Assembly (NCBI RefSeq): GCF_012273215.1
Contig: NZ_CP050965.1
Span: 1,775,001 to 1,839,000 of the forward strand
From: Gemella haemolysans
GTDB lineage: Bacteria; Bacillota; Bacilli; Staphylococcales; Gemellaceae
Length of the DNA stretch: 64,000 nt
Direction: 5' to 3'
Shown here: positions 42,609 through 61,405 of the stretch, piece after piece
Position numbering within the stretch: position 1 is the first letter of the stretch
How the letters are laid out: every line of letters starts with the position of its first letter
Translations under genes and position numbers: made by a program
Notes under the pieces: generated by a model
Seen by the model: the letters and a program-made list of their open reading frames with translations, nothing else
What the model was told of the DNA's origin: nothing
The model's database searches: none

Positions 42609-43685
42609 ATGAGTAAATTACAAAAATTAGTAGCCGCTACGGCAATCGTATCAACAGTAGGTGTTGGTTTATCACAAATCGCTGATGCAGATACATATAC
42701 AGTAAAAAAAGGTGATACTCTTTGGGATATCGCAATCAACAACGGAACAACTGTTGATCAACTTATGCAAGACAACAACTTAACAAGTTCATTAATTTTC
42801 CCTGGGGATAAATTAACTTACAACACAACAGTAGCTCAAGTAGCTCAAGCTAAAGAAGAAGGTTACTACACAGTAGTATTAGGAGATACTTTAGGGAAAA
42901 TTTCTAACAGATTCGGTGTTTCAGTAGACCAACTTGTTAAATTAAACAAACTTGAAAATCCTAACTTAATTTATGTTGGAACAGTATTAAAAGTAAGTGA
43001 AAACGCAGCTACTAAAACTGAAGTTTCAGTACCAAAAGCAGAAGCAACAGTAGCAAAAGCAACTGTAGTAGAAAACACTGCAGAAAAAACTGTAGCTAAA
43101 GTAGACACAGTTCAAACTGTACCTGCAAAACCAGCAGCAGCTACTTCAAAAGTGGAAACTCCAGCAGTAGCACCAAAAGCAGAGGTTAAAAAAGAAACTC
43201 CAGCGGTAGCGCCAAAAGCGGAAGTTAAAAAAGAAACTCCAGCGGTAGCGCCAAAAGCGGAAGTTAAAAAAGAAACTCCAGTAGCAACAGCAGCACCGAC
43301 AGTAGCAGCAAAACCAGCAGCTCCAGCGGCAGCAGCAACTACTCAAGCGGCTTCTTCAAACAAAGGAGCAGCAATCTACCAAGCGGCATTAGCTCAATTA
43401 GGTAGATACCAAGACTGTACAATGCTAGTAACAAATGCTCTTAAAGCAGTAGGAATCAACTTCCACGACTGGCCAGCAGGATATATGAGCTTAGGAACTG
43501 TAGTTCCAGCATCACAAGCTCAACCTGGAGACTTAGTTTACTACGCAAATGGTGGATTAGGAGCAGCTCACATCGCAGTTTATGCAGGTAACGGTCAAGC
43601 AGTTCACGGTGGATGGTTAGGTAACCAAACAGCGCTTAACTCTGCAAACGTTGGTAGTGGAGCAGTATACATCCGCGTTAAATAA
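42609..43685 (+). CDS. Secreted LysM-NlpC/P60 cell wall hydrolase
   Basis: 358 residues. Signal peptide 1-27 (KLQKLVAATAIVSTVGVG, cut near QIADA). LysM 1 at ~29-71 (YTVKKGDTLWDIAINNG) and LysM 2 at ~83-126 (YYTVVLGDTLGKISNRFG) bind peptidoglycan. A Pro/Ala/Lys/Val linker (~130-250) includes three copies of a 13-residue unit PAVAPKAEVKKET. The C-terminal catalytic domain (~255-358) has Cys in RYQDCTMLVTNALK and His in AAHIAVYAGNG, as in NlpC/P60 peptidases. Likely splits wall peptides during growth and division. A perfect WalR box upstream indicates control by the essential WalRK system. Confidence 0.93.
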   Translation: MSKLQKLVAATAIVSTVGVGLSQIADADTYTVKKGDTLWDIAINNGTTVDQLMQDNNLTSSLIFPGDKLTYNTTVAQVAQAKEEGYYTVVLGDTLGKISNRFGVSVDQLVKLNKLENPNLIYVGTVLKVSENAATKTEVSVPKAEATVAKATVVENTAEKTVAKVDTVQTVPAKPAAATSKVETPAVAPKAEVKKETPAVAPKAEVKKETPAVAPKAEVKKETPVATAAPTVAAKPAAPAAAATTQAASSNKGAAIYQAALAQLGRYQDCTMLVTNALKAVGINFHDWPAGYMSLGTVVPASQAQPGDLVYYANGGLGAAHIAVYAGNGQAVHGGWLGNQTALNSANVGSGAVYIRVK

Positions 43686-43772: not shown

Positions 43773-43805
43773 TAATCGGACTGATGGAAAAAATCAGTCC
43801 GATTG
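43773..43805 (-). terminator. Terminator of the CHAP cassette
   Basis: AATCGGACTGAT / ATCAGTCCGATT, 12-bp perfect stem, then ATTTTA on the minus strand. Confidence 0.75.
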
Positions 43806-43837: not shown

Positions 43838-44512
43838 TTATTCAAATTTTCCCCAGCTACTAGTTCTTCTATTTCCATCATGGGTTCCTGTAGCTAAGTA
43901 ATGTCGTTCTTTTGAGTAAGAAATGTAGCTGATCCAAACAAAACCTTCCTTGATTACGTAGCTATCATAATATACTCGTTCACCTTCGTAATATGTATTA
44001 ACAATTTTCCCTAGTTTGCTTGGTTTAACTCTGACATTTATTGACGAAACTCCTACAGTAAAATAACCGTTTTCTGGGATTCTAGACCATTCTTCACTGG
44101 AATCGTAACTAGGTCTTATGAACCCAACTAGATAAGTATCATCACGACTCATGATACGAGCGATACCTCCACGTTCTGGGGTACCATCAACATTTTGTTC
44201 TACAGAGGTAATAGTACTACCATTTACCTCAATAACTATTCCTACATGTCCGTACTTATCCCAATCTCCCCAGTGCCAGATTGCTATGTCTCCAGGAGCT
44301 ACTTCTACATCCCCTTTGTAATATCTTTTCCAACCAGGAGGTATAGAGTTAGTTAGATAATCTATAGCGTTGCCGTATATTTGAAAGTTTGCAAAGTTTT
44401 TTACGTAGGCCATAGTAAGATCGACGCATTGTGCACCATACATACCATCCATATCAATCCATTTATATACATTATCTTTAGCCCAATTTACCATTGTTTG
44501 TTGACTTGTCAT
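43838..44512 (-). CDS. CHAP-SH3b peptidoglycan hydrolase (endolysin-like)
   Basis: 224 residues. CHAP domain ~1-140: catalytic Cys in MYGAQCVDLTMAYVKN, His in DKYGHVGIVIEV, and a Glu/Asn partner in SVEQN. An SH3b-type wall-binding domain runs from ~155 to 215 (FTVGVSSINVRVKPSKLG, EGERVYYDSYVIKEGFVWISY). There is no signal peptide, as in phage endolysins that need a holin. It is the last gene of a minus-strand cassette DUF1659-DUF2922-YvrJ-CHAP with no phage structural genes around. Start ATG follows AAAGGGAGTAAATATT. Confidence 0.92.
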   Translation of the reverse strand: MTSQQTMVNWAKDNVYKWIDMDGMYGAQCVDLTMAYVKNFANFQIYGNAIDYLTNSIPPGWKRYYKGDVEVAPGDIAIWHWGDWDKYGHVGIVIEVNGSTITSVEQNVDGTPERGGIARIMSRDDTYLVGFIRPSYDSSEEWSRIPENGYFTVGVSSINVRVKPSKLGKIVNTYYEGERVYYDSYVIKEGFVWISYISYSKERHYLATGTHDGNRRTSSWGKFE

Positions 44513-44535
44513 AATATTTACTCCCTTTATTTGTG

Positions 44536-44697
44536 TTATTTGTTGCTAATATCTAGATTTAATTTTGTTTCGATAATACGAGTAAGTTCGTTTAAATTTT
44601 TCCCTATGTTTTGCAGCGTATTGTCTAATTTCAATAAAAAGAATACTGCAACAAATATAGGAAATCCTACAGTATTAATGAAATTTAATATATCCAT
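44536..44697 (-). CDS. YvrJ family small membrane protein
   Basis: 53 residues from the ATG at 44697. One hydrophobic helix (INTVGFPIFVAVFFLLKL) followed by a charged amphipathic tail (LDNTLQNIGKNLNELTRIIE), which is the YvrJ family pattern. Function unknown; size and topology would allow a pinholin-like role for the hydrolase encoded next. The only good ribosome site (GGGAGGGAGG) is more than 20 nt upstream, separated by a GC-rich hairpin and seven T that end exactly at the ATG. A longer frame to 44760 overlaps the DUF2922 gene and lacks a start with a site. Confidence 0.82.
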   Translation of the reverse strand: MDILNFINTVGFPIFVAVFFLLKLDNTLQNIGKNLNELTRIIETKLNLDISNK

Positions 44698-44724
44698 AAA
44701 AAAAGGTGCGGAATTAACCGCACC
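44698..44724 (-). terminator. Hairpin plus T-run directly before the yvrJ start codon
   Basis: Minus strand GGTGCGG-TTAATT-CCGCACC-TTTTTTT then ATG. Works as an intra-operon terminator by shape, and brings the ribosome site near the ATG if folded. Confidence 0.75.
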
Positions 44725-44737
44725 TCCCTCCCTTCTA

Positions 44738-44950
44738 TTATTGAAGTTCGCTTGCTTCACGTGTAACGTAAGTAGCTTTTTTAAAACCTGTTAGAGTGTG
44801 TTTATCGTTGTTGAAAACTTTAGTATCAATAATTTTCTGAGCAACACCTTCCACAGTAGCTTTACTTAAGTTTTCTTTTGGATGTGATAAAGCGACGTGA
44901 TAAGTTTTTTTGTTTTCTGTATTGAAATAAATGTTTAATTTTTTCTCCAT
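44738..44950 (-). CDS. DUF2922 family protein
   Basis: 70 residues, soluble, small beta/alpha protein. Sequence pattern KKLNIYFNTENKKTYHVALS, then HPKENLSKATVEGVAQKIID and a C-terminal segment with TLTGFKKATYVTREASEL, is that of DUF2922. Members are nearly always found beside DUF1659 and YvrJ. Function unknown. Start ATG has an excellent TTAGGAGGAAAAACACATT. Stop is followed by a terminator-like hairpin ahead of yvrJ. Confidence 0.88.
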   Translation of the reverse strand: MEKKLNIYFNTENKKTYHVALSHPKENLSKATVEGVAQKIIDTKVFNNDKHTLTGFKKATYVTREASELQ

Positions 44951-44970
44951 AATGTGTTTTTCCTCCTAAA

Positions 44971-45165
44971 TTATAGTGCCTCTTTTGTATTGGTTGTAAT
45001 AGTATCAATATTTTTATCGATAAGTTTTTTTAATTCTTCCCCAACTTCTTTTAAAGTATTATCCTCAGTGTTTGGAGAAACCTCGAAGTTATAACTTTTA
45101 GTAACTTGTTTTTGGTTTTTTTCTTCACCATAGTTTAAATGTAAAACTTTTTTTAATATACTCAT
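44971..45165 (-). CDS. DUF1659 family protein
   Basis: 64 residues from the ATG at 45165, which has AAAGGAGATTTCAAA; a longer frame to 45237 has no site. Pattern KKVLHLNYGEEKNQKQVTKS, SYNFEVSPNTEDNTLKEVGE, and a final helix LKKLIDKNIDTITTNTKEAL fits DUF1659. First gene of the cassette. Upstream (minus strand) a TTGACA at about 45240 and a TATAAT at about 45212 are 25 bp apart, too far for a normal sigma-A promoter, so regulation is unclear. Confidence 0.82.
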   Translation of the reverse strand: MSILKKVLHLNYGEEKNQKQVTKSYNFEVSPNTEDNTLKEVGEELKKLIDKNIDTITTNTKEAL

Positions 45166-45385
45166 TTTGAAATCTCCTTTGTTGTTTGTTATTTGTCTTT
45201 GGCCGCTGACATTATATTTATCGAAATAACTGACCATGGTTTGTCAAAAATAATTCTTTTTCCTATTGATCAGTTTTAGTGAAAGTTTTAAGTACAATTT
45301 AATTTGAATAGAGTATAATAAAAAAGTAGTGGAAATATGCTAAAAATAGTATTATAATATATTAGTAACGAAGGAGGGGAATATA

Positions 45386-48531: not shown

Positions 48532-51500
48532 GTGATAGGAAAAAATAATCAATATTTAAAGAAAACAAAAGAAGGAACGAAAGTAGAAACTTACTCGATC
48601 AAAAAATTCAAAATAGGTACTGCATCAGTAGTAATAGGTGCAAGTATCTTTTTTGGTGCTGGAGCAGTGGCACAAGCTAGTGAAGAAGTTTCAAAAAACA
48701 CAACAACAGATAATTCAAAAAATGAAGGTGCGACATTAGGTGTCTCGATCTCTGAAAAAGTAGTTGGTAATTCAGTTGCCAAGGAAACAACAAAAGAGGA
48801 AGTAGCGGCAGGTGTAGCAGCAAAATTAGGAATAAAGGAAACTGAAAAAGTAGCTGAAAAAGATCTTGTAAAAACATTAGATAAAACACAACTATCAAGC
48901 TTTATTAGTGAAATCGAAGGAAAGATTTCAAGTGGGGCTTATGTGAACAAAACAGAAGAAAGTGTAGCTAATTTAGTAGCTGACTTAAATACAGCAAAAG
49001 TAACTTTAGAAAGTGCAAAAACACAAGAAGAACTAACTAAAACATATCAAAAGCTAGTGGTTTCTGTTAACTCGAAACTAAGAAATAAAACAGTTGAGAA
49101 AAAAGAAACTCCAGTAGTTGAATCTACAACTTCAAAAGAAACTGCAGGTAATAAAGAAGAAAACACGGAGAAAAAAGTTGAGAATAACTCAGCTGAAAAT
49201 ACGGAGAAAAAAGTTGAGAATAACTCAATTGAAAACACAGGAGCAAAAGATCCTGGTAATGGAAAAGAAATAGCGAAGAATACTGCATTCCGTGCAGCTG
49301 TTAACCAAGATCCAAAGGTAGATTTCACATTCTCGATTCCAGATGAGAAGAAAATCTATATCTATAACGAAGAGCACTTTTCATTGGAGATTCCAGTTTA
49401 TTCTGAAACAGGAAAGATCCGTTATGCAACGATTAAGAAAGGATCAAGACAAAGATTCCCTAATGTTGCAGGTACGGATAATGACTTAGATGTTGAATTT
49501 GGATTTACAGCTACGGTAATAAATCGTGATGAAACAGCTGGTGTTACATCAAATGCGAGTCAAGCAAATCCTGCAAAAATCGTCATTACTGGTCGTCCAA
49601 ATGACATACTAAAAAATATGCCGCAGTATACAAAACAAGAAAATCAAACATTAAACGTTGGTACTCGTTATGTACAGGTAGTTGATGATCAAGGAAGAGA
49701 GAATCTTAAAAAAGGTATGGATATAACAGATCCAGGATATTTCTACTTAGTATTAAAATCACAAGCGAAAAAGTATGCATTAAGATCTCGGGGTACTGAT
49801 GAGAAAATTTCTGTAAGTAGTTTAACTAACCCAACAGCGGAAGATTTAAAGAAAATCAAAGATAGTATTCAATTAGAATATTCAACAACAAACGAAGATG
49901 CAAGGTTTGCAGATAAACGTGGAACTTTAGTAGAACATCCTGAGGATGTTATTCAATCGGTTAATATCGTTGGAAATAATATTGTTGTTACATTTACAGA
50001 CGGTTCTACGAAGACAAAACCGGTAAGTGAAATTGTACAAAAGAATGTTCCTCCGGTCGTTAATCTGCCCTATTCAAACGAAGCGAACAGAAATATTTAT
50101 ATATATTCTGGAGAAGAGACAGATCTAACATTTACTGCAACGGATGAATCTAAGATTAAGGATCTAAAACTTCGTGGTCCTGGTGATATTAACTACAATA
50201 ATGCAACTAGTTTTGGGTTAGCAGTAGGGAATATTGTTGATAGTGCAGTAACTAGTGGACAAGGTTCTGTGTCTGAAGATAAGAAAACAGCAACAATTAA
50301 AATGACTGGAACTACTAACTTAGGAGATGGTAAAAAGTGGACAAGTGTTATCGTTGCAAAAGATGACAACAATGGGGAAAGTGCACCTTTCAACGGAAGA
50401 ATTAATGCAACTACTAATCCTGCAGAACGTCAAAAAATAGCGGGATATGTTGAATTCGTAGTGAAAAATCAAACTAAAAAATATGATATTAAAGCACCAG
50501 AAGGTACGGTAAGTGTAATAGATCCTGCGAATGTAACTGCAGAAGAATTTGAAAAAATTAAAGAAAAAGTAAAAATTGAATACTCTCAAACTAATGATGA
50601 TGCAAATCTTACAAGTAAGAGAGGGCAAGCTGTAGACAATCAAGCGACAAGAATTTCTACAATTACAAAAGATGCTAGTGGAAATCTTGTTGTGACATAT
50701 AAAGATGGTTCAACTGATACAAAACCTTTATCAGAATATGTAAGTTTAAATAAACAACCTGCAATTGATGCAATTAATACAGCTGCAAACAATAAAATTG
50801 CGGAAATTAATTCAAATACAAACGCAACTGCAGAAGAAAAAGCAGAAGCAATCGAAAAAGTTAATGCTGATAAGACAAAAGCTTTAACAGCAATTAATGA
50901 TAACTCGGTAACGACAAAAGCTGCATTAGATAATGCAAAAACATCAGGAACAACTGCGATTAGCAATGATAACCCGGTAGTAACTAAGAAAGATACGGCA
51001 AAAGCAGCTATTGATACGGCTTTAAGAGAGAAAGAAGCTGCAATCGATGCGAATAATACTCTGACAACAGAAGAGAAGAATGCAGCCAAAGCAGATGCGC
51101 AGGCAAAAGCGAATGCAGCAAAAACAGCAATTGATAATGCGACAACAAACGCAGCTGTAGACTCAGCGAAAACGGCGGGAACAACGAGTGTAGGGTCAGT
51201 AAACCCAACAGCTGTAGCGAAACCAGCGGCTAAGAAAGCAATAGATGACGCACTTAAAACGAAAGAAGCACAACTTGATGGAAGAAATGATTTAACAACA
51301 GAAGAGAAGAATGCAGCCAAAGCAGATGCGCAAGCAAGAGCAACGGCAGCCAAAGCAGCTATCGACAATGCTACAACAGATGCAACTGTAGATAGTGCTA
51401 AAACAACAGGTGTTGCTGATGTTGAAAGTGTCAATCCACAAGCAAGTCAAAAGAAAAGTGATGCGAAAAATGCAGTTGATGAAGCGTTAAAAGTAAAAGA

Positions 51501-54500
51501 AGCAGCTATAGATGCGAATAACGACTTAACAGCGGAAGAAAAAGCAAAAGCTAAGGAAGATGCAAAAGCGAAAGCCGATGCAGCGAAGACTGCGATTGAT
51601 AATGCGACAACAAACGCAGCTGTAGAACAAGCTAAGGCTGATGGAGCAACAAGTGTAGATTCAGTAAACCCAACGGCACAAGCGAAGCCAGCAGCTAAAA
51701 AAGCGATAGACGATGCACTTAAAGCTAAAAATGACGCGATTGATGCGAATAACGACTTAACTGATGAAGAAAAGACTGCGGCGAAAGCAGATGCAAAAGC
51801 GAAAGCCGATGCAGCGAAGACTGCGATTGATAATGCGACAACAAACGCAGCTGTAGAACAAGCTAAGGCTGATGGAGCAACATCAGTAGATTCAGTAAAT
51901 CCAACGCCAGTAACGAAACCAGCAGCTAAAAAAGCGATAGATGATGCACTTAAAGCTAAAAATGACGCGATCGATGCGAACAACGACTTAACAGCGGAAG
52001 AGAAAGCAAAAGCTAAGGAAGATGCAAAAGTAAAAGCTGATGTAGCGAAAACAGCAATCGACAACGCTACGACAAACGATGCAGTTACTCAAGCTAAAAA
52101 CGATGGAGCAACAAGTGTAGATTCAGTAAACCCAACGGCACAAGCGAAGCCAGCAGCTAAAAAAGCAATAGATGATGCATTAAAAGCTAAAAACGACGCG
52201 ATTGACGCGAACAACGACTTAACTGATGAAGAAAAGACTGCGGCGAAAGCAGATGCAAAAGCAAAAGCTGATGCAGCGAAAACAGCAATCGACAACGCTA
52301 CGACAAACGATGCAGTTACTCAAGCTAAAAACGATGGAGCGACATCAGTAGATTCAGTAAATCCAACGCCAGTAGCAAAACCAGCGGCTAAAAAAGCAAT
52401 AGATGATGCATTAAAAGCTAAAAACGACGCGATTGACGCGAACAACGACTTAACTGATGAAGAAAAGACTGCGGCGAAAGCAGATGCGAAAGCGAAAGCC
52501 GATGCAGCGAAGACTGCGATTGATAATGCGACAACAAACGCAGCAGTAGAACAAGCTAAGGCTGATGGAGCAACATCAGTAGATTCAGTAAACCCAACGG
52601 CACAAGCGAAGCCAGCAGCTAAAAAAGCGATAGATGATGCACTTAAAGCTAAAAATGACGCGATCGATGCGAACAACGACTTAACAGCGGAAGAGAAAGC
52701 AAAAGCTAAGGAAGATGCAAAAGCAAAAGCTGATGTAGCGAAAACAGCAATCGACAACGCTACGACAAACGATGCAGTTACTCAAGCTAAAAACGATGGA
52801 GCAACAAGTGTAGATTCAGTAAACCCAACGGCACAAGCGAAGCCAGCAGCTAAAAAAGCAATAGATGATGCATTAAAAGCTAAAAACGACGCGATTGACG
52901 CGAACAACGACTTAACTGATGAAGAAAAGACTGCGGCGAAAGCAGATGCAAAAGCGAAAGCCGATGCAGCGAAGACTGCGATTGATAATGCGACAACAAA
53001 CGCAGCTGTAGAACAAGCTAAGGCTGATGGAGCAACATCAGTAGATTCAGTAAACCCAACGGCACAAGCGAAGCCAGCAGCTAAAAAAGCGATAGATGAT
53101 GCACTTAAAGCTAAAAATGACGCGATTGATGCGAATAACAACTTAACAGCGGAAGAAAAAGCAAAAGCTAAGGAAGATGCAAAAGCAAAAGCTGATGCAG
53201 CGAAGACTGCGATTGATAATGCGACAACAAACGCAGCTGTAGAACAAGCTAAGGCTGATGGAGCAACAAGTGTAGATTCAGTAAACCCAACGGCACAAGC
53301 GAAGCCAGCAGCTAAAAAAGCGATAGATGATGCACTTAAAGCTAAAAATGACGCGATTGATGCGAATAACAACTTAACAGCGGAAGAAAAAGCAAAAGCT
53401 AAGGAAGATGCAAAAGCAAAAGCTGATGCAGCGAAGACTGCGATTGATAATGCGACAACAAACGCAGCTGTAGAACAAGCTAAGGCTGATGGAGCAACAT
53501 CAGTAGATTCAGTAAACCCAACGGCACAAGCGAAGCCAGCAGCTAAAAAAGCGATAGATGATGCACTTAAAGCTAAAAATGACGCGATTGATGCGAATAA
53601 CAACTTAACAGCGGAAGAAAAAGCAAAAGCTAAGGAAGATGCAAAAGCAAAAGCTGATGCAGCGAAGACTGCGATTGATAATGCGACAACAAACGCAGCT
53701 GTAGAACAAGCTAAGGCTGATGGAGCAACAAGTGTAGATTCAGTAAACCCAACGGCACAAGCGAAGCCAGCAGCTAAAAAAGCAATAGATGATGCATTAA
53801 AAGCTAAAAACGACACGATTGACGCGAACAACGACTTAACTGATGAAGAAAAGACTGCGGCGAAAGCAGATGCAAAAGCGAAAGCCGATGCAGCGAAGAC
53901 TGCGATTGATAATGCGACAACAAACGCAGCTGTAGAACAAGCTAAGGCTGATGGAGCAACAAGTGTAGATTCAGTAAATCCAACGCCAGTAGCGAAACCA
54001 GCAGCTAAAAAAGCGATAGAAGATGTACTTAAAGCTAAAAATGACGCGATCGATGCGAACAACGACTTGACTGATGAAGAAAAGACTGCGGCGAAAGCAG
54101 ATGCAAAAGCAAAAGCTGATGCAGCAAAACAAGCGATCGATAACGCTACTACAAATGATGCAGTAACACAAGCTAAAAATGATGGAGCGACATCAGTAGA
54201 TTCAGTAAATCCAACGCCAGTAGCAAAACCAGCGGCTAAAAAAGCAATAGATGATGCATTAAAAGCTAAAAACGACGCGATTGACGCGAACAACGACTTA
54301 ACTGATGAAGAAAAGACTGCGGCGAAAGCAGATGCGAAAGCGAAAGCCGATGCAGCGAAACAAGCAATCGACAACGCGACAACAAACGATGCAGTAACTC
54401 AAGCTAAAACAGATGGAGCAACAAGTGTAGATTCAGTAAACCCAACGGCACAAGCGAAGCCAGCAGCTAAAAAAGCGATAGATGATGCACTTAAAGCTAA

Positions 54501-57500
54501 AAATGACGCGATTGATGCGAATAACAACTTAACAGCGGAAGAAAAAGCAAAAGCTAAGGAAGATGCAAAAGCAAAAGCTGATGCAGCGAAGACTGCGATT
54601 GATAATGCGACAACAAACGCAGCAGTAACTCAAGCTAAGACAAATGGAGCAACATCAGTAGATTCAGTAAATCCAACGCCAGTAGCGAAGCCAGCAGCTA
54701 AAAAAGCAATAGATGATGCATTAAAAGCTAAAAACGACGCGATTGACGCGAACAACGACTTAACAGCGGAAGAAAAAGCAAAAGCTAAGGAAGATGCAAA
54801 AGCAAAAGCTGATGCAGCGAAGACTGCGATTGATAATGCGACAACAAACGCAGCAGTAACTCAAGCTAAGACAAATGGAGCAACATCAGTAGATTCAGTA
54901 AATCCAACGCCAGTAGCGAAAACAGCGGCTAAGAAAGCAATAGATGATGCATTAAAAGCTAAAAACGACGCGATTGATGCGAATAACGACTTAACAGCGG
55001 AAGAAAAAGCTACAGCAAAACAAGAAGCACAAGCTAAGGCGACAGAAGCTAAGAACAACATCGATGCAGCAAGAACAAACGATGCAGTAACTCAAGCTAA
55101 GACAAATGGAACAACAGAAGTAAACAATGTAAATCCACAACCAGAAGCGAAGCCAGCGGCTAAAAAAGCGATAGACGATGCATTAAAAGCTAAAAACGAC
55201 GCGATTGACGCGAACAACGACTTAACAGATGAAGAAAAAACTGCGGCGAAAGCAGATGCAAAAGCGAAAGCCGATGCAGCGAAACAAGCAATCGACAACG
55301 CAACAACAAATGATGCAGTAATTCAAGCTAAGACAAATGGAACAACAGAAGTAAACAATGTAAATCCACAGCCAGAAGCGAAACCAGCGGCTAAGAAAGC
55401 AGTAGAAGACGCACTAGCGGATAAGATTAAAGCAATTGATGCGAACAACGACTTGACTGATGAAGAAAAAACTGCAGCTAAAGAAGAAGCTAAAGCAAAA
55501 GCCGATGCAGCAAAACAAGCAATCGATAACGCAACAACAAACGCGGGAGTGGAACAAGCTAAGGCTAATGGAGCAACAGAAGTAAACAATGTAAATCCAA
55601 CGCCAGAAGCGAAACCAGCGGCTAAGAAAGCAGTAGAAGATACATTAGCGGATAAGATCAAAGCAATTGATGAGAACAACGACTTGACTGATGAAGAAAA
55701 AACTGCGGCTAAGGAAGATGCAAAAGCGAAAGCCGATGCAGCAAAACAAGCAATCGATAACGCAACAACAAACGCGGGAGTGGAACAAGCTAAGGCTAAT
55801 GGAGCAACAGAAGTAAACAATGTAAATCCAACGCCAGAAGCGAAACCAGCGGCTAAGAAAGCAGTAGAAGATGCATTAGCGGATAAGATCAAAGCAATTG
55901 ATGAGAACAACGACTTAACAGATGAAGAGAAAGCTACAGCGAAACAAGAAGCACAAGCTAAGGCAACAGAAGCTAAGAATAACATCGACGCAGCGAGAAC
56001 AAACGCAGAAGTAGAGACAGCTAAAACAAATGGAACAACAGAAGTAAACAATGTAAATCCAACGCCAGAAGCGAAACCAGCAGCTAAAAAAGCAATAGAA
56101 GACGCGTTAGCTGAGAAGATTAAAGCAATCGAAGCAAATAATGACTTGACTGACGAAGAAAAAACTGCAGCAAAACAAGAAGCACAAGCTAAGGCGACAG
56201 AAGTTAAGAACAACATTGATGCAGCAAGAACAAACGACGCAGTAACTCAAGCTAAGACAAATGGAACAACAGAAGTAAACAATGTAAATCCACAGCCAGA
56301 AGCGAAAACTGCGGCTAAGAAAGCAGTAGAAGACGCACTAGCGGATAAGATTAAAGCAATTGATGCGAATAAGGACTTAACTGATGAAGAAAAGACTGCG
56401 GTGAAAGCAGATGCGAAAGCAAAAGCTGATGCAGCAAAACAAGCAATCGATAACGCAACAACAAACGCTGGAGTGGAACAAGCTAAGGCTAATGGAACAA
56501 CAGAAGTAAACAATGTAAATCCAACGCCAGAAGCGAAACCAGCGGCTAAGAAAGCAGTAGAAGATGCACTGAAAGCTAAGGAAGCAGCGATCGATGCGAA
56601 TAACGACTTAACGGACGAAGAAAAAACTGTGGCTAAGGCAGAAGCTAAGAAGAAAGCCGATGCAGCAAAAGAAGCGATTGACAACGCGACAACAAACGCA
56701 GGAGTAGAACAAGCTAAGGCTAACGGAACAACAGAAGTAAAAGCTGTAGACCCACAACCGGTAGCGAAACCAGCGGCTAAGAAAGCGATAGAAGACGCAT
56801 TAAAAGCTAAGAACGATGCGATTGATGCGAACAACGACTTAACAGACGAAGAAAAAACTGCGGCTAAAGAAGAAGCTAAAGCCAAAGCAGATGCAGCAAA
56901 ACAAGCAGTTGATAAAGCGACAACAAATGCTGACGTTGAAAATGCAAAAACTACTGGGGTAGCAGATGTAAACTCATTGAATCCAGTAGCGGTTAAGAAA
57001 CTAGAGGCTAAAAAAGCAATAGATGAGGCTCTTAAGGCAAAAGAAGCAGAAATTGATGCGAATAATGACTTGACAGCAGAAGAGAAACAAGCAGCTAAGG
57101 AAGAGGCTAAGAAAAAAGCAGATGCATCAAAAGAAGCGATTGACAATGCGACAACAAACGCAGAAGTAGACCAAGCTAAGGATAACGGAACAACAGAAGT
57201 GAAAGCTGTAAATCCACAACCAGTAGCCAAAACAGAAGCTAAGAAAGCGATCGACGATGCGCTTAAAGCTAAGAATGACGAGATCGGCGCACGTACAGAC
57301 TTAACAGACGAAGAAAAAACTGCGGCTAAAGAAGAAGCTAAAGCCAAAGCAGATGCAGCAAAACAAGCAGTTGATAAAGCGACAACAAATGCTGACGTTG
57401 AAAATGCAAAAACTACTGGGGTAGCAGATGTAAACTCATTGAATCCAGTAGCGGTTAAGAAACCAGAGGCTAAAAAAGCAATAGATGAGGCTCTTAAGGC

Positions 57501-60500
57501 AAAAGAAGCAGAAATTGATGCGAATAATGACTTGACAGCAGAAGAGAAACAAGCAGCTAAGGAAGAGGCTAAGAAAAAAGCAGATGCAGCAAAAGAAGCA
57601 ATTGACAATACGACAACAAACGCAGAAGTAGAGCAAGCTAAGACTGCAGGAACAACAAGTGTAGATTCAGTGAATCCAACGGCACAAGCAAAACCAGCAG
57701 CGAAACAAGCAATCGACGATGCTCTGAAAGCTAAGAACGATGAGATAGACGCACGTACAGACTTAACGGACGAAGAAAAAACTGCGGCTAAGGCAGAAGC
57801 TAAGAAGAAAGCCGATGCAGCAAAAGAAGCGATTGACAACGCGACAACAAACGCAGGAGTAGAACAAGCTAAGGATAACGGAACAACAGAAGTAAAAGCT
57901 GTAGACCCACAACCGGTAGCGAAAACAGAAGCTAAGAAGGCAATCGACGAAGCACTTAAAGCTAAGGAAGCAGCGATTGATGCGAACAATGACTTAACAT
58001 ATGAGGAAAAAGCAGCAGCTAAGCAAGAAGCGCAAGACAAGGCAGCTGCAGCGAAGACTGCGATCGACAATGCGACAACCAATGCAGCGGTAGAACAAGC
58101 TAAGGATAACGGAACAACAGAAGTGAAAGCTGTAGATCAACAATCAGTAGCGAAAACAGAAGCTAAGAAAGCAATCGATGATGCCCTAAGAGCTAAAAAT
58201 GACGAGATCGATGCACGTACAGACTTAACGGACGAAGAAAAAACTGCGGCTAAGGCAGAAGCTAAGAAGAAAGCCGATGCAGCAAAAGAAGCGATTGACA
58301 ACGCGACAACAAACGCAGAAGTAAACCAAGCTAAGACTAATGGAACATTAGACGTGACTTCAGTAAATCCACAACCAGTAGCGAAGCCAGAAGCTAAGAA
58401 AGCAATCGATGAAGTACTTAAAGCTAAGAATGATGAAATCGATGCACGTACAGACTTAACAGATGAAGAAAAAGTCAAAGCGAAAGCAGATGCGAAAGCC
58501 AAAGCCGATGCAGCGAAAGAGGCAATCGACAACGCGACAACAAATGCAGCGGTAGAACAAGCTAAGGCTAATGGAACAACAGAAGTAACTTCAGTAGATC
58601 CAGAAGCAGTAGCGAAGACAGAAGCTAAGAAAGCAATCGATGAAGCTCTTAAAGCTAAAAATGATGAAATCGATGCACGTACAGATTTAACAGAAGAAGA
58701 GAAAACTGCGGCTAAGGCAGATGCGAAAGCAAAAGCTGATGCAGCAAAAGCAGCAATCGATAAAACAACAACAAATGTAGAAGTCGATCAAGCTAAAACA
58801 ACTGGAACAACAGAAGTAGCTGCAGTAAATCCAGAAGCGTTAGTAAAATCTGCTGCTAAGAAAGCTATAGATGATAAGTTAGCAGAACAACTTAAAGTTA
58901 TAGCAAATACTCCGGACGCTACTGATGAAGAGAAAAAAGCAGTAGCTGACAAAGCTAAACAATTAGCAGAAGAAGCTAAGAAAGCTATTGATGCAGCTAA
59001 GACAAATGCAGATGTGAAAAAATTACAAGCTGACTCTGAAGCGGAAATTGAAAAAACGGTGCCGTTAGTAGAAGCTAAACCTAATGCAAGAAAAGCGATA
59101 GATGAAGAAGCGAAAGCTAAGAAAGCAGCTATTGATGCCAGAACAGATATTTCTGATAAAGTGAAAGAGCTTCTTAAGGCTGAAGTTGATGAAATTGTAA
59201 CACAAGCTAAAAAAGCTATCGATGCAGCTTCAAGTGTTAATGAACTTAACAAGATAGAAGAAGCTAAGAAATCAGAAATCAAAGCTGTGGAAGAAGTTAG
59301 AGTTCCTGCAGAAAAAGTAATTGTAGCAGATCCAACTAAGTTAACGAATGAAGAAAAAGCTAAAGTATTAGCGGCTATTAGATCAGTAAATCCAGATGCA
59401 AAAGAAATAACACAAGATGAAAAAGGCAATGTTATAGTAGTGACTGCAAACGGTCATAAACAAGTTATTTCAGTTGCACAAGTAACAAAAACAGAAGCAG
59501 ATCTTGTTAAAGAAAATGCTGGAAATGTAGTTAATACACCTGTAGCTAAGACGGCTGTAGCGGATGTAACAAAACTAACAGAAGCAGAGAAACAGGAAAT
59601 CATAGCTAAAGTTAAGGCGGTAAATCCTGGAGCAACAGTAGCTATCGATGAAAAAGGTAATGTTATTGTAACTAATGGAGAAGGTTTAGTATTCGTACTT
59701 CCAGTTCTAGATTTAGTTATTCCAACGGATAAACTGACTGATATTACTGCGAATAGCAAGGTTAATACACCAGCAATAAGAACGTTAGTAGCGAATAAAG
59801 GAAGTTTAACATCAGAAGAAATAGCAAAAATTAAAGCAGCTATCAAAGAAATTAATCCTGGAGCGTTAGTTGTAGTAGATTCAAAAGGAAATGCCACTGT
59901 TACTACAAAAGATGGCAAGTCTACGACGATTTCTTCAGATGTACTAGTGAAAGATGCTGCAGATGTTAAGAATAATGGTGAAAATATTAATCTTGACTTT
60001 GATAAAGAGGTAGTTGCGGATATTAACAATCTAACTGAATCTGATAAAGAAAAAGGTAAGTTTAAGGTGTTAGGAGCTATAAGAGAAGCGGTAGAACTTG
60101 TCATTGATGAAAAAGGGAATGCTACTGTAATTCTTAAAGATGGTAGAATATTTACTATTCTAGCTAAAAATATCTTTGAACAACGTAAAGAAGTAACTGT
60201 AAACTTACCGGAAAAAGTTAAGGTAAAAGATGTTTCAAACCTTACAGAAATAGAAAAAGAAGCTGTTAAACAAGCTTTAATAACTACAAATCCAAATTTA
60301 AAAGATGCTAAAATTACTATTTCAAACACAGGAGAAGTGACAATTGTTTACCCTGATGGGCAAGTGGTAGTAATTTCAGCTGAAAACTTAGTAGTTGCTA
60401 AGAAAGTAACAAGTGTTATCGTTGAGGATAACGTAGGAACTTATACAAAAGAAGATAAGAAACCTATGGTAGATTATTCAAATGACAACACATCTAGATT

Positions 60501-60633
60501 CAATGCTAAAAAAGGTCAACGCCTAGCGAATACAGGAGAAGATGAGACTAATACTGGATTAGCAGGGCTAGGAATGGCGCTTTTAGGTGGATTACTTGTG
60601 GTAGCGAAACGTCGTAAGGAAAAAGAAGAATAA
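48532..60633 (+). CDS. Giant DUF1542-repeat surface adhesin, sortase-anchored
   Basis: 4033 residues from a GTG start with AAGGAGGGATGCATCG. The signal region carries YSIKKFKIGTASVVIG (residues 21-36), a YSIRK-G/S type signal. Residues ~50-240 are low complexity; ~245-740 are two unrelated-looking beta-rich modules, each ending in a V-x-(F/Y)-(T/K)-D-G-S-T strand. Residues 743-3589 are about 37 repeats of 77 residues of DUF1542 type (core AKPAAKKAIDDALKAKNDAI). About 3590-3970 hold five related ~70-79-residue modules ending in DG strands. The anchor is LANTGE (3998-4003), then a hydrophobic helix and KRRKEKEE. Architecture resembles staphylococcal Ebh/FmtB/SasC, which bind matrix or aid aggregation; the ligand here is unknown. 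Confidence 0.93.
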   Translation: MIGKNNQYLKKTKEGTKVETYSIKKFKIGTASVVIGASIFFGAGAVAQASEEVSKNTTTDNSKNEGATLGVSISEKVVGNSVAKETTKEEVAAGVAAKLGIKETEKVAEKDLVKTLDKTQLSSFISEIEGKISSGAYVNKTEESVANLVADLNTAKVTLESAKTQEELTKTYQKLVVSVNSKLRNKTVEKKETPVVESTTSKETAGNKEENTEKKVENNSAENTEKKVENNSIENTGAKDPGNGKEIAKNTAFRAAVNQDPKVDFTFSIPDEKKIYIYNEEHFSLEIPVYSETGKIRYATIKKGSRQRFPNVAGTDNDLDVEFGFTATVINRDETAGVTSNASQANPAKIVITGRPNDILKNMPQYTKQENQTLNVGTRYVQVVDDQGRENLKKGMDITDPGYFYLVLKSQAKKYALRSRGTDEKISVSSLTNPTAEDLKKIKDSIQLEYSTTNEDARFADKRGTLVEHPEDVIQSVNIVGNNIVVTFTDGSTKTKPVSEIVQKNVPPVVNLPYSNEANRNIYIYSGEETDLTFTATDESKIKDLKLRGPGDINYNNATSFGLAVGNIVDSAVTSGQGSVSEDKKTATIKMTGTTNLGDGKKWTSVIVAKDDNNGESAPFNGRINATTNPAERQKIAGYVEFVVKNQTKKYDIKAPEGTVSVIDPANVTAEEFEKIKEKVKIEYSQTNDDANLTSKRGQAVDNQATRISTITKDASGNLVVTYKDGSTDTKPLSEYVSLNKQPAIDAINTAANNKIAEINSNTNATAEEKAEAIEKVNADKTKALTAINDNSVTTKAALDNAKTSGTTAISNDNPVVTKKDTAKAAIDTALREKEAAIDANNTLTTEEKNAAKADAQAKANAAKTAIDNATTNAAVDSAKTAGTTSVGSVNPTAVAKPAAKKAIDDALKTKEAQLDGRNDLTTEEKNAAKADAQARATAAKAAIDNATTDATVDSAKTTGVADVESVNPQASQKKSDAKNAVDEALKVKEAAIDANNDLTAEEKAKAKEDAKAKADAAKTAIDNATTNAAVEQAKADGATSVDSVNPTAQAKPAAKKAIDDALKAKNDAIDANNDLTDEEKTAAKADAKAKADAAKTAIDNATTNAAVEQAKADGATSVDSVNPTPVTKPAAKKAIDDALKAKNDAIDANNDLTAEEKAKAKEDAKVKADVAKTAIDNATTNDAVTQAKNDGATSVDSVNPTAQAKPAAKKAIDDALKAKNDAIDANNDLTDEEKTAAKADAKAKADAAKTAIDNATTNDAVTQAKNDGATSVDSVNPTPVAKPAAKKAIDDALKAKNDAIDANNDLTDEEKTAAKADAKAKADAAKTAIDNATTNAAVEQAKADGATSVDSVNPTAQAKPAAKKAIDDALKAKNDAIDANNDLTAEEKAKAKEDAKAKADVAKTAIDNATTNDAVTQAKNDGATSVDSVNPTAQAKPAAKKAIDDALKAKNDAIDANNDLTDEEKTAAKADAKAKADAAKTAIDNATTNAAVEQAKADGATSVDSVNPTAQAKPAAKKAIDDALKAKNDAIDANNNLTAEEKAKAKEDAKAKADAAKTAIDNATTNAAVEQAKADGATSVDSVNPTAQAKPAAKKAIDDALKAKNDAIDANNNLTAEEKAKAKEDAKAKADAAKTAIDNATTNAAVEQAKADGATSVDSVNPTAQAKPAAKKAIDDALKAKNDAIDANNNLTAEEKAKAKEDAKAKADAAKTAIDNATTNAAVEQAKADGATSVDSVNPTAQAKPAAKKAIDDALKAKNDTIDANNDLTDEEKTAAKADAKAKADAAKTAIDNATTNAAVEQAKADGATSVDSVNPTPVAKPAAKKAIEDVLKAKNDAIDANNDLTDEEKTAAKADAKAKADAAKQAIDNATTNDAVTQAKNDGATSVDSVNPTPVAKPAAKKAIDDALKAKNDAIDANNDLTDEEKTAAKADAKAKADAAKQAIDNATTNDAVTQAKTDGATSVDSVNPTAQAKPAAKKAIDDALKAKNDAIDANNNLTAEEKAKAKEDAKAKADAAKTAIDNATTNAAVTQAKTNGATSVDSVNPTPVAKPAAKKAIDDALKAKNDAIDANNDLTAEEKAKAKEDAKAKADAAKTAIDNATTNAAVTQAKTNGATSVDSVNPTPVAKTAAKKAIDDALKAKNDAIDANNDLTAEEKATAKQEAQAKATEAKNNIDAARTNDAVTQAKTNGTTEVNNVNPQPEAKPAAKKAIDDALKAKNDAIDANNDLTDEEKTAAKADAKAKADAAKQAIDNATTNDAVIQAKTNGTTEVNNVNPQPEAKPAAKKAVEDALADKIKAIDANNDLTDEEKTAAKEEAKAKADAAKQAIDNATTNAGVEQAKANGATEVNNVNPTPEAKPAAKKAVEDTLADKIKAIDENNDLTDEEKTAAKEDAKAKADAAKQAIDNATTNAGVEQAKANGATEVNNVNPTPEAKPAAKKAVEDALADKIKAIDENNDLTDEEKATAKQEAQAKATEAKNNIDAARTNAEVETAKTNGTTEVNNVNPTPEAKPAAKKAIEDALAEKIKAIEANNDLTDEEKTAAKQEAQAKATEVKNNIDAARTNDAVTQAKTNGTTEVNNVNPQPEAKTAAKKAVEDALADKIKAIDANKDLTDEEKTAVKADAKAKADAAKQAIDNATTNAGVEQAKANGTTEVNNVNPTPEAKPAAKKAVEDALKAKEAAIDANNDLTDEEKTVAKAEAKKKADAAKEAIDNATTNAGVEQAKANGTTEVKAVDPQPVAKPAAKKAIEDALKAKNDAIDANNDLTDEEKTAAKEEAKAKADAAKQAVDKATTNADVENAKTTGVADVNSLNPVAVKKLEAKKAIDEALKAKEAEIDANNDLTAEEKQAAKEEAKKKADASKEAIDNATTNAEVDQAKDNGTTEVKAVNPQPVAKTEAKKAIDDALKAKNDEIGARTDLTDEEKTAAKEEAKAKADAAKQAVDKATTNADVENAKTTGVADVNSLNPVAVKKPEAKKAIDEALKAKEAEIDANNDLTAEEKQAAKEEAKKKADAAKEAIDNTTTNAEVEQAKTAGTTSVDSVNPTAQAKPAAKQAIDDALKAKNDEIDARTDLTDEEKTAAKAEAKKKADAAKEAIDNATTNAGVEQAKDNGTTEVKAVDPQPVAKTEAKKAIDEALKAKEAAIDANNDLTYEEKAAAKQEAQDKAAAAKTAIDNATTNAAVEQAKDNGTTEVKAVDQQSVAKTEAKKAIDDALRAKNDEIDARTDLTDEEKTAAKAEAKKKADAAKEAIDNATTNAEVNQAKTNGTLDVTSVNPQPVAKPEAKKAIDEVLKAKNDEIDARTDLTDEEKVKAKADAKAKADAAKEAIDNATTNAAVEQAKANGTTEVTSVDPEAVAKTEAKKAIDEALKAKNDEIDARTDLTEEEKTAAKADAKAKADAAKAAIDKTTTNVEVDQAKTTGTTEVAAVNPEALVKSAAKKAIDDKLAEQLKVIANTPDATDEEKKAVADKAKQLAEEAKKAIDAAKTNADVKKLQADSEAEIEKTVPLVEAKPNARKAIDEEAKAKKAAIDARTDISDKVKELLKAEVDEIVTQAKKAIDAASSVNELNKIEEAKKSEIKAVEEVRVPAEKVIVADPTKLTNEEKAKVLAAIRSVNPDAKEITQDEKGNVIVVTANGHKQVISVAQVTKTEADLVKENAGNVVNTPVAKTAVADVTKLTEAEKQEIIAKVKAVNPGATVAIDEKGNVIVTNGEGLVFVLPVLDLVIPTDKLTDITANSKVNTPAIRTLVANKGSLTSEEIAKIKAAIKEINPGALVVVDSKGNATVTTKDGKSTTISSDVLVKDAADVKNNGENINLDFDKEVVADINNLTESDKEKGKFKVLGAIREAVELVIDEKGNATVILKDGRIFTILAKNIFEQRKEVTVNLPEKVKVKDVSNLTEIEKEAVKQALITTNPNLKDAKITISNTGEVTIVYPDGQVVVISAENLVVAKKVTSVIVEDNVGTYTKEDKKPMVDYSNDNTSRFNAKKGQRLANTGEDETNTGLAGLGMALLGGLLVVAKRRKEKEE
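50758..59298 (+). repeat. 231-bp tandem repeat array coding the DUF1542 modules
   Basis: About 37 units of 231 bp (77 codons), many nearly identical in the centre (about 51.5-54.9 kb) and diverging toward both ends. Two linker variants (NPTAQ and NPTPV) and two core variants (LTDEEKTAAK and LTAEEKAKAK) are shuffled among units. Confidence 0.92.
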
Positions 60634-60940: not shown

Positions 60941-61405
60941 ATGGCAAACAAACATAATAGTTTATCGCATACAAAGTGGTTATGTAAATACCATATTGTA
61001 TTTACCCCTAAGTATAGACGAAAAATAGAATTTAATCAATACAAACGAGATATAGTAGATATAATAAAAAGGTTATGTAAGTATAAAGGAGTGGAAATAA
61101 TAGAAGGACATATAATGCCAGATCATATACATTTGCAGTTATCAATACCACCGAAATATAGTGTATCAAGTTTTATGGGGTATTTGAAAGGAAAAAGTTC
61201 ACTCATAATATTTGATATGCATGCAAACTTGAAATATAAGTATGGGAATAGAAAATTTTGGGCAGAAGGATACTATGTAAGTACTGTAGGTTTGAATGAA
61301 AGTATAATAAGAAAATATATCAGAGAACAAGAAACTCATGACATTTCAATAGATAAATCGACAACAAAAGAATATACAAATCCATTTGGAAATAAGAAAA
61401 AGTAG
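60941..61405 (+). CDS. tnpA: IS200-family transposase TnpA
   Basis: 154 residues from ATG 60941 (an in-frame ATG at 60929 abuts the ribosome site and is unlikely). Y1 HUH nuclease: KYHIVFTPKYRRKIEF near the start, the HUH motif in MPDHIHLQLSIPPK, and the catalytic Tyr in IIRKYIREQE. It cuts and joins single-stranded DNA at the IS end hairpins. Full length and with intact motifs, so probably active. Sits in the gap between the giant surface protein and the YhgE-like gene. Confidence 0.93.
   Translation: MANKHNSLSHTKWLCKYHIVFTPKYRRKIEFNQYKRDIVDIIKRLCKYKGVEIIEGHIMPDHIHLQLSIPPKYSVSSFMGYLKGKSSLIIFDMHANLKYKYGNRKFWAEGYYVSTVGLNESIIRKYIREQETHDISIDKSTTKEYTNPFGNKKK

Follow-up and report, generated by a model that had tools for sequence, protein, structure and literature searches.

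A putative holin-endolysin operon built on the DUF1659-DUF2922 gene pair in Gemella haemolysans

What purpose is served by a phage-type endolysin without an export signal in the chromosome of Gemella haemolysans, where it is packed against the genes of three small protein families? The question is raised by a stretch of 64,000 nucleotides (nt) from this organism (assembly GCF_012273215.1, contig NZ_CP050965.1, positions 1,775,001 to 1,839,000 of the forward strand), referred to here as the window. It belongs to a genome of 2.08 Mb in a single contig. Four minus-strand genes of the window encode DUF1659, DUF2922 and YvrJ family proteins and a CHAP-SH3_5 hydrolase. Judged from sequence, this cassette is probably a domesticated holin-endolysin operon, built on the bacterial DUF1659-DUF2922 pair and placed under an alternative sigma factor. 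The genes and the terminator that follows them are:

44971..45165, minus strand: DUF1659 protein of 64 residues (Pfam 26.7 bits, cut-off 24.1), predicted beta-beta-alpha-beta
44738..44950, minus strand: DUF2922 protein of 70 residues (Pfam E 2.3e-19), predicted beta-beta-alpha-beta
44536..44697, minus strand: YvrJ family protein of 53 residues (Pfam E 5.7e-8), one predicted transmembrane helix, holin-like (PHROG 4898, 'holin')
43838..44512, minus strand: CHAP-SH3_5 peptidoglycan hydrolase of 224 residues, phage-endolysin type (Pfam CHAP E 8.3e-15, SH3_5 E 9.9e-10)
43774..43804, minus strand: intrinsic terminator with a 12-pair stem, closing the operon

The initial annotation, made from the letters alone, had described four packed minus-strand genes of these families with no phage gene around them. 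The first point is confirmed by Pfam and by the short gaps between the genes (approximately 20, 40 and 23 nt), and the second by the window gene list, in which the flanks hold ordinary bacterial housekeeping or surface-protein genes. Capsid, tail and integrase genes were not seen in that list, the exception being a transposase-like open reading frame (ORF; 60941-61405), and phage structural or integration genes were likewise not seen near the cassette in nine congeneric loci. The start of YvrJ requires correction: it is the ATG at 44697, and the start at 44760 in the ORF list is an upstream GTG.

The hydrolase has the make-up of an endolysin, with a catalytic Cys/His motif, a wall-binding domain and no signal peptide. 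Alignment with PDB 5udm shows that the Cys (AQCVDLT), His (YGHVGIV) and EQN motifs are kept. The enzyme is collinear over its full length with the leaderless CHAP-SH3_5 lysins of Streptococcus phages, to which the 5udm family belongs, at 39% identity (tblastn against phages). Its N-terminus is not hydrophobic, which agrees with the earlier statement that an export signal is missing. It differs from the phage enzymes in being chromosomal, present in nine of nine Gemella species, adjacent to DUF genes and outside a prophage. No relatives were found in viral contigs by a scan able to catch close relatives only. A search with PADLOC models of anti-phage defence returned one short marginal match, of JetD to the hydrolase (E 1.4e-3, 15.8 bits), and none for the other three proteins.

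YvrJ carries the sequence marks of a holin. It is a small membrane protein with a single hydrophobic segment (residues 3-21, mean Kyte-Doolittle value 2.1) that forms the predicted helix, and it matches the phage family PHROG 4898 (E 1.2e-10). In Bacillus phage KonjoTrouble, a relative annotated as a holin is encoded immediately ahead of the endolysin, and the same phage-lysis order, YvrJ followed by CHAP-SH3, recurs in the window and across nine species. The strongest sequence argument comes from two sampled Bacilli loci in which the YvrJ slot is taken by another holin family: Phage_holin_4_1 in one (L069, E 3.6e-33) and Holin_BhlA, of the UviB family, in the other (L127, E 2.5e-16). Because other holin families replace it in this position, it appears that YvrJ does the job of a holin, presumably as a small one-helix form.

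Could the cassette be a decayed phage lysis module that was fixed by chance beside the DUF genes? The phage relatives of the hydrolase and YvrJ fit this explanation, as does the hydrolase of one Gemella species (genome G006, locus L007), whose SH3 part is frameshifted. Such a relic is nevertheless highly improbable. All four genes are located together in nine of nine Gemella species, with DUF2922 occurring once per species. Codon comparisons between closer species pairs give the hydrolase a ratio of nonsynonymous to synonymous substitution rates (dN/dS) of approximately 0.04-0.1, indicating purifying selection. This co-location and constraint argue against chance. Three different DUF2922 queries gave zero tblastn matches in 50,697 phage records; weak PHROG matches exist. 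Furthermore, different endolysins have been recruited independently in other taxa. The chromosomal surroundings of the cassette vary among Gemella species (fructose phosphotransferase system genes, a LysM-NlpC gene and others). In a further genome (G007, locus L003) DUF1659 starts with ATA instead of ATG; this change and the G006 frameshift may be sequencing error or decay, which were not distinguished.

Outside Gemella, DUF2922 was found in 149 of 250 sampled Bacilli genomes, mostly as a single copy. In 92 loci of other genera, examined together with 8-20 kb of flanking DNA, DUF2922 is nearly always directly preceded by DUF1659, and about half (51 by the authors' count) also have YvrJ next to the pair. 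Leaderless hydrolases of unrelated folds (GH25, Amidase_2 and M15) stand directly beside the DUF set, GH25 doing so in sampled genomes and also in Vagococcus, Enterococcus alcedinis and Tetragenococcus. Plasmids of Geobacillus and Parageobacillus carry a conserved block of ComK (or an unnamed protein)-DUF1659-DUF2922-YvrJ-M15-recombinase/integrase (loci L224-L227, L230 and L231); a Peribacillus plasmid has an amidase in the hydrolase position. The remaining wall hydrolases in the flanks are non-adjacent and have hydrophobic N-termini. The one exception is an Amidase_3, encoded on a small contig at a distance of six genes.

Only Gemella was found to have all four genes with CHAP-SH3 as the hydrolase; other genera use a different hydrolase family. 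Many genomes have the DUF pair, about half of them with YvrJ, and no hydrolase adjacent to it. Neither of the outcomes that the initial annotation named as refuting was seen: the homologous loci lie outside prophages, and the linkage is kept in other genomes. The initial interpretation as a whole is partly supported. Its core, a domesticated holin/endolysin module, is well supported by sequence in the holin-like YvrJ, its replacement by other holins and the recurring signal-less endolysins.

How would such an operon be held in check? An unusual promoter-like sequence, CGATATATA, is conserved 5′ of the operon and had been missed earlier. Its elements are:

45242..45250, minus strand: putative -35 region, TTTTTGACA here and TTTTTGRGAA in several congeners (alignment of eight Gemella upstream regions)
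45213..45225, minus strand: putative -10 element TTCGATAAATATA; TTYCGATATATA in Gemella and other Staphylococcales, CGTTTATATA in Enterococcaceae
45194..45211, minus strand: imperfect palindrome TGTCAGCGGCCAAAGACA just downstream of the -10 element, a possible operator or 5′ hairpin

The block conserved in Gemella thus consists of the -35-like TTTTTGRGAA, the -10-like TTYCGATATATA and the palindrome TGTCAGMGGCCWAAGACA. A -10-like CGATATAT stands 30-32 nt before DUF1659 in eight of eight other Staphylococcales loci sampled, and in Enterococcaceae CGTTTATATA is followed by a different palindrome. The transcription start would fall 5-10 nt after CGATAAATATA. The promoter does not look like a housekeeping one. 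When it was sought at other genes in six Gemella genomes, only the cassette sites recurred. The palindrome TGTCAGCGGCCAAAGACA has one full-match site per genome, with partial matches elsewhere at chance level only.

A second element, also absent from the initial annotation, lies within the operon:

44698..44724, minus strand: terminator-like hairpin GGTGCGG-TTAATT-CCGCACC followed by T7, its last base directly adjoining the YvrJ ATG

This G+C-rich hairpin and its T-run separate DUF2922 from YvrJ in nine of nine Gemella species, with compensatory changes at three pairs, and the hairpin of the window has a z value of -5.5. Among 86 non-Gemella loci, 46 have a similar hairpin ahead of the following gene, versus 0.7 in mononucleotide shuffles. 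A hairpin in this position could indicate two independent units, with DUF1659-DUF2922 ending at its own terminator and YvrJ and the hydrolase forming a separately transcribed pair next door. However, the YvrJ ATG directly follows the T-run in most Gemella, so there is no room for a promoter between them. The linkage also recurs in many families, with unrelated holins and hydrolases in the same place, and two units seem quite unlikely. It follows from the hairpin that the YvrJ message either reads through a terminator-like structure or is initiated from a structured leader, and either one fits a lock on lethal genes. The conserved unusual promoter and the hairpin together support tight control.

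Regulatory genes are found beside related loci. In 11 of the 92 loci, the gene just upstream encodes a small sigma-70-like factor; among other neighbouring genes, 10 of 1500 do so (odds ratio 20, p 3e-9). A looser count, which admits an undetected DUF1659 or one gene in between, gives a sigma gene in 15 loci from 8 families. The DUF1659-DUF2922(-YvrJ) sets of Clostridium adjoin pairs of small sigma-like genes (loci L177-L183). ComK-like genes occur near six sampled loci, and of three tested with Pfam, one match was strong and two were weak; no convincing ComK boxes were found 5′ of DUF1659 on the Geobacillus plasmids. In Bacillus subtilis the split sigma factor SigO-RsoA transcribes yvrJ (PMC8103513), and it is raised 3.9/8.7-fold in competent cells (PMC7317962). 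As proposed for the Gemella operon, the YvrJ gene of this cluster is controlled by an alternative sigma factor, here of two subunits; the DUF pair and the endolysin are additions of the Gemella module. A paper on the SigH regulon of L. sakei does not mention lysozyme or lysin. Gemella has apparently one alternative sigma factor besides RpoD, a divergent protein of 172 residues. Its gene forms a pair conserved in Gemella (L213, 858-2019) with a preceding gene for a 139-residue region-4-like helix-turn-helix protein, and in two species it lies at a distance of 5-7 kb from the cassette.

These neighbours also suit a different role, in which the endolysin acts locally and opens the wall for the transformation pilus without killing the cell. 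ComK or sigma genes adjoin many loci, Gemella has comGA and ComEC, and LytF of S. sanguinis has been proposed to open the wall for the competence pilus (PMC13192262). Yet Gemella was without a complete set of competence genes in a published survey (PMC7136413). Nor do comG and the cassette clearly share a promoter, and the cassette combines a holin-like gene with a leaderless enzyme. The streptococcal CbpD, which likewise has a CHAP domain, and LytF are wall hydrolases tied to competence. Enzymes of the LytF type are secreted in the ordinary way, however; both CbpD and LytF are exported by a signal peptide and without a holin, unlike the Gemella cassette. A pilus helper is regarded as rather unlikely. 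Between the cassette promoter and the comG promoters a link is suggestive, in one genus only. Gemella comGA has a conserved hairpin (ATATAGGCTAAGTA...TACTTAGCCTATAT) and T-run of its own directly before the ribosome site (loci L052-L056).

The operon could instead release a linked or unlinked cargo, such as a bacteriocin, DNA or the DUF1659-DUF2922 proteins, in the manner of UviA-UviB-amidase for Bcn5 or of TcdE. A sigma factor, a holin and an endolysin are the hallmark architecture of the UviA-UviB and TcdE loci (PMC9527704). The resemblance to UviA-UviB-amidase (Bcn5, C. perfringens pIP404) and to TcdR/TcdE comprises a small sigma-70-like factor, a one-helix or phage holin and a leaderless endolysin in one neighbourhood (PMC9527704). 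Similarly, the module resides on Geobacillus plasmids, as UviAB does on pIP404, and BhlA takes the YvrJ slot of one locus. The Gemella operon differs in its DUF1659-DUF2922 core and in the hairpin before the holin gene. No bacteriocin or toxin gene was found in or beside it, in the window or in nine congeneric flanks, and in particular no linked leaderless one; a dedicated sigma gene is adjacent in other genera and not in G. haemolysans. Type 10 secretion, a ChiW/ChiX-like non-lytic system, is a further bacterial use of a holin and endolysin, described for Gram-negatives with a linked chitinase or toxin cargo. Cargo release is possible, if on the unlikely side.

Several observations weigh against a domesticated operon under an alternative sigma factor. 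The sigma gene lies approximately 107 kb from the cassette in the G. haemolysans genome (1712559-1713074 in genome coordinates), and ComK is absent from nine of nine Gemella species. The cassette promoter was not matched at comGA in Gemella, and Staphylococcales comGA promoters match the motif weakly, being clear in one of six. In most Bacilli no hydrolase adjoins the DUF pair, which is accompanied by YvrJ in about half of them, and the sampled loci are phylogenetically non-independent. To these may be added the G006 frameshift.

The domesticated operon would function as follows. The alternative sigma factor would recognize the non-housekeeping promoter and drive DUF1659-DUF2922. The hairpin with its T-run would then act as an attenuator that stops most transcripts, masks the ribosome site before YvrJ, or both. 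Once this is passed, YvrJ would assemble in the membrane as the holin, and the leaderless CHAP-SH3 enzyme would cross to the wall and open it locally or lyse the cell. Candidate uses may include wall opening, cargo secretion and DNA release, the last with a possible link to competence.

The DUF1659 and DUF2922 proteins are soluble-like. AlphaFold gives both a beta-beta-alpha-beta fold (pLDDT 87 for DUF2922 and 82 for DUF1659), and fold matching found no confident structural relative of either. The best rows, phi29 p6/p56, PurS, T7 gp2 and YkzG, were weak and non-specific. Paralogy of the two was rejected on a weak profile match (hhalign probability 32%), their similarity being in predicted topology only. 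It is a guess that the two act on RNA polymerase or on the hairpin. A wider proposal can be made, tentative and rather doubtful: that DUF1659-DUF2922-YvrJ is a general lysis or release switch of Bacillota under competence-type regulators (SigH/ComX-like sigma, SigO-RsoA, ComK). Through RNA polymerase or the conserved hairpin, the paired proteins would admit transcription into the holin-endolysin part, and chromosomes and plasmids would use the switch for DNA release by a subpopulation.

The window holds other features as well. Convergent with the cassette and next to it is a gene (42609-43685, plus strand) whose product is a secreted LysM-NlpC/P60 hydrolase; it occupies this neighbouring place in several, though not all, congeners. 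Further along, a repetitive surface protein of 4033 residues (48532-60633, plus strand) has a YSIRK-like start and an LPxTG-like end. Downstream of this giant gene is the transposase-like ORF (plus strand), probably of IS200/IS605 type judging by its sequence only.

A full-text literature search found no dedicated study naming DUF1659, DUF2922 or YvrJ. All three stand repeatedly beside competence-type regulators, holins and endolysins that lack a leader, and this suggests for the first time a function that can be tested. In Firmicutes and on plasmids, related operons often have such a regulator as their neighbour, which points to a module for lysis or release in bacteria that has not been described before. 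Under this reading, programmed lysis and release would reach beyond phages and the toxin loci of clostridia, into ordinary commensals and plasmids.
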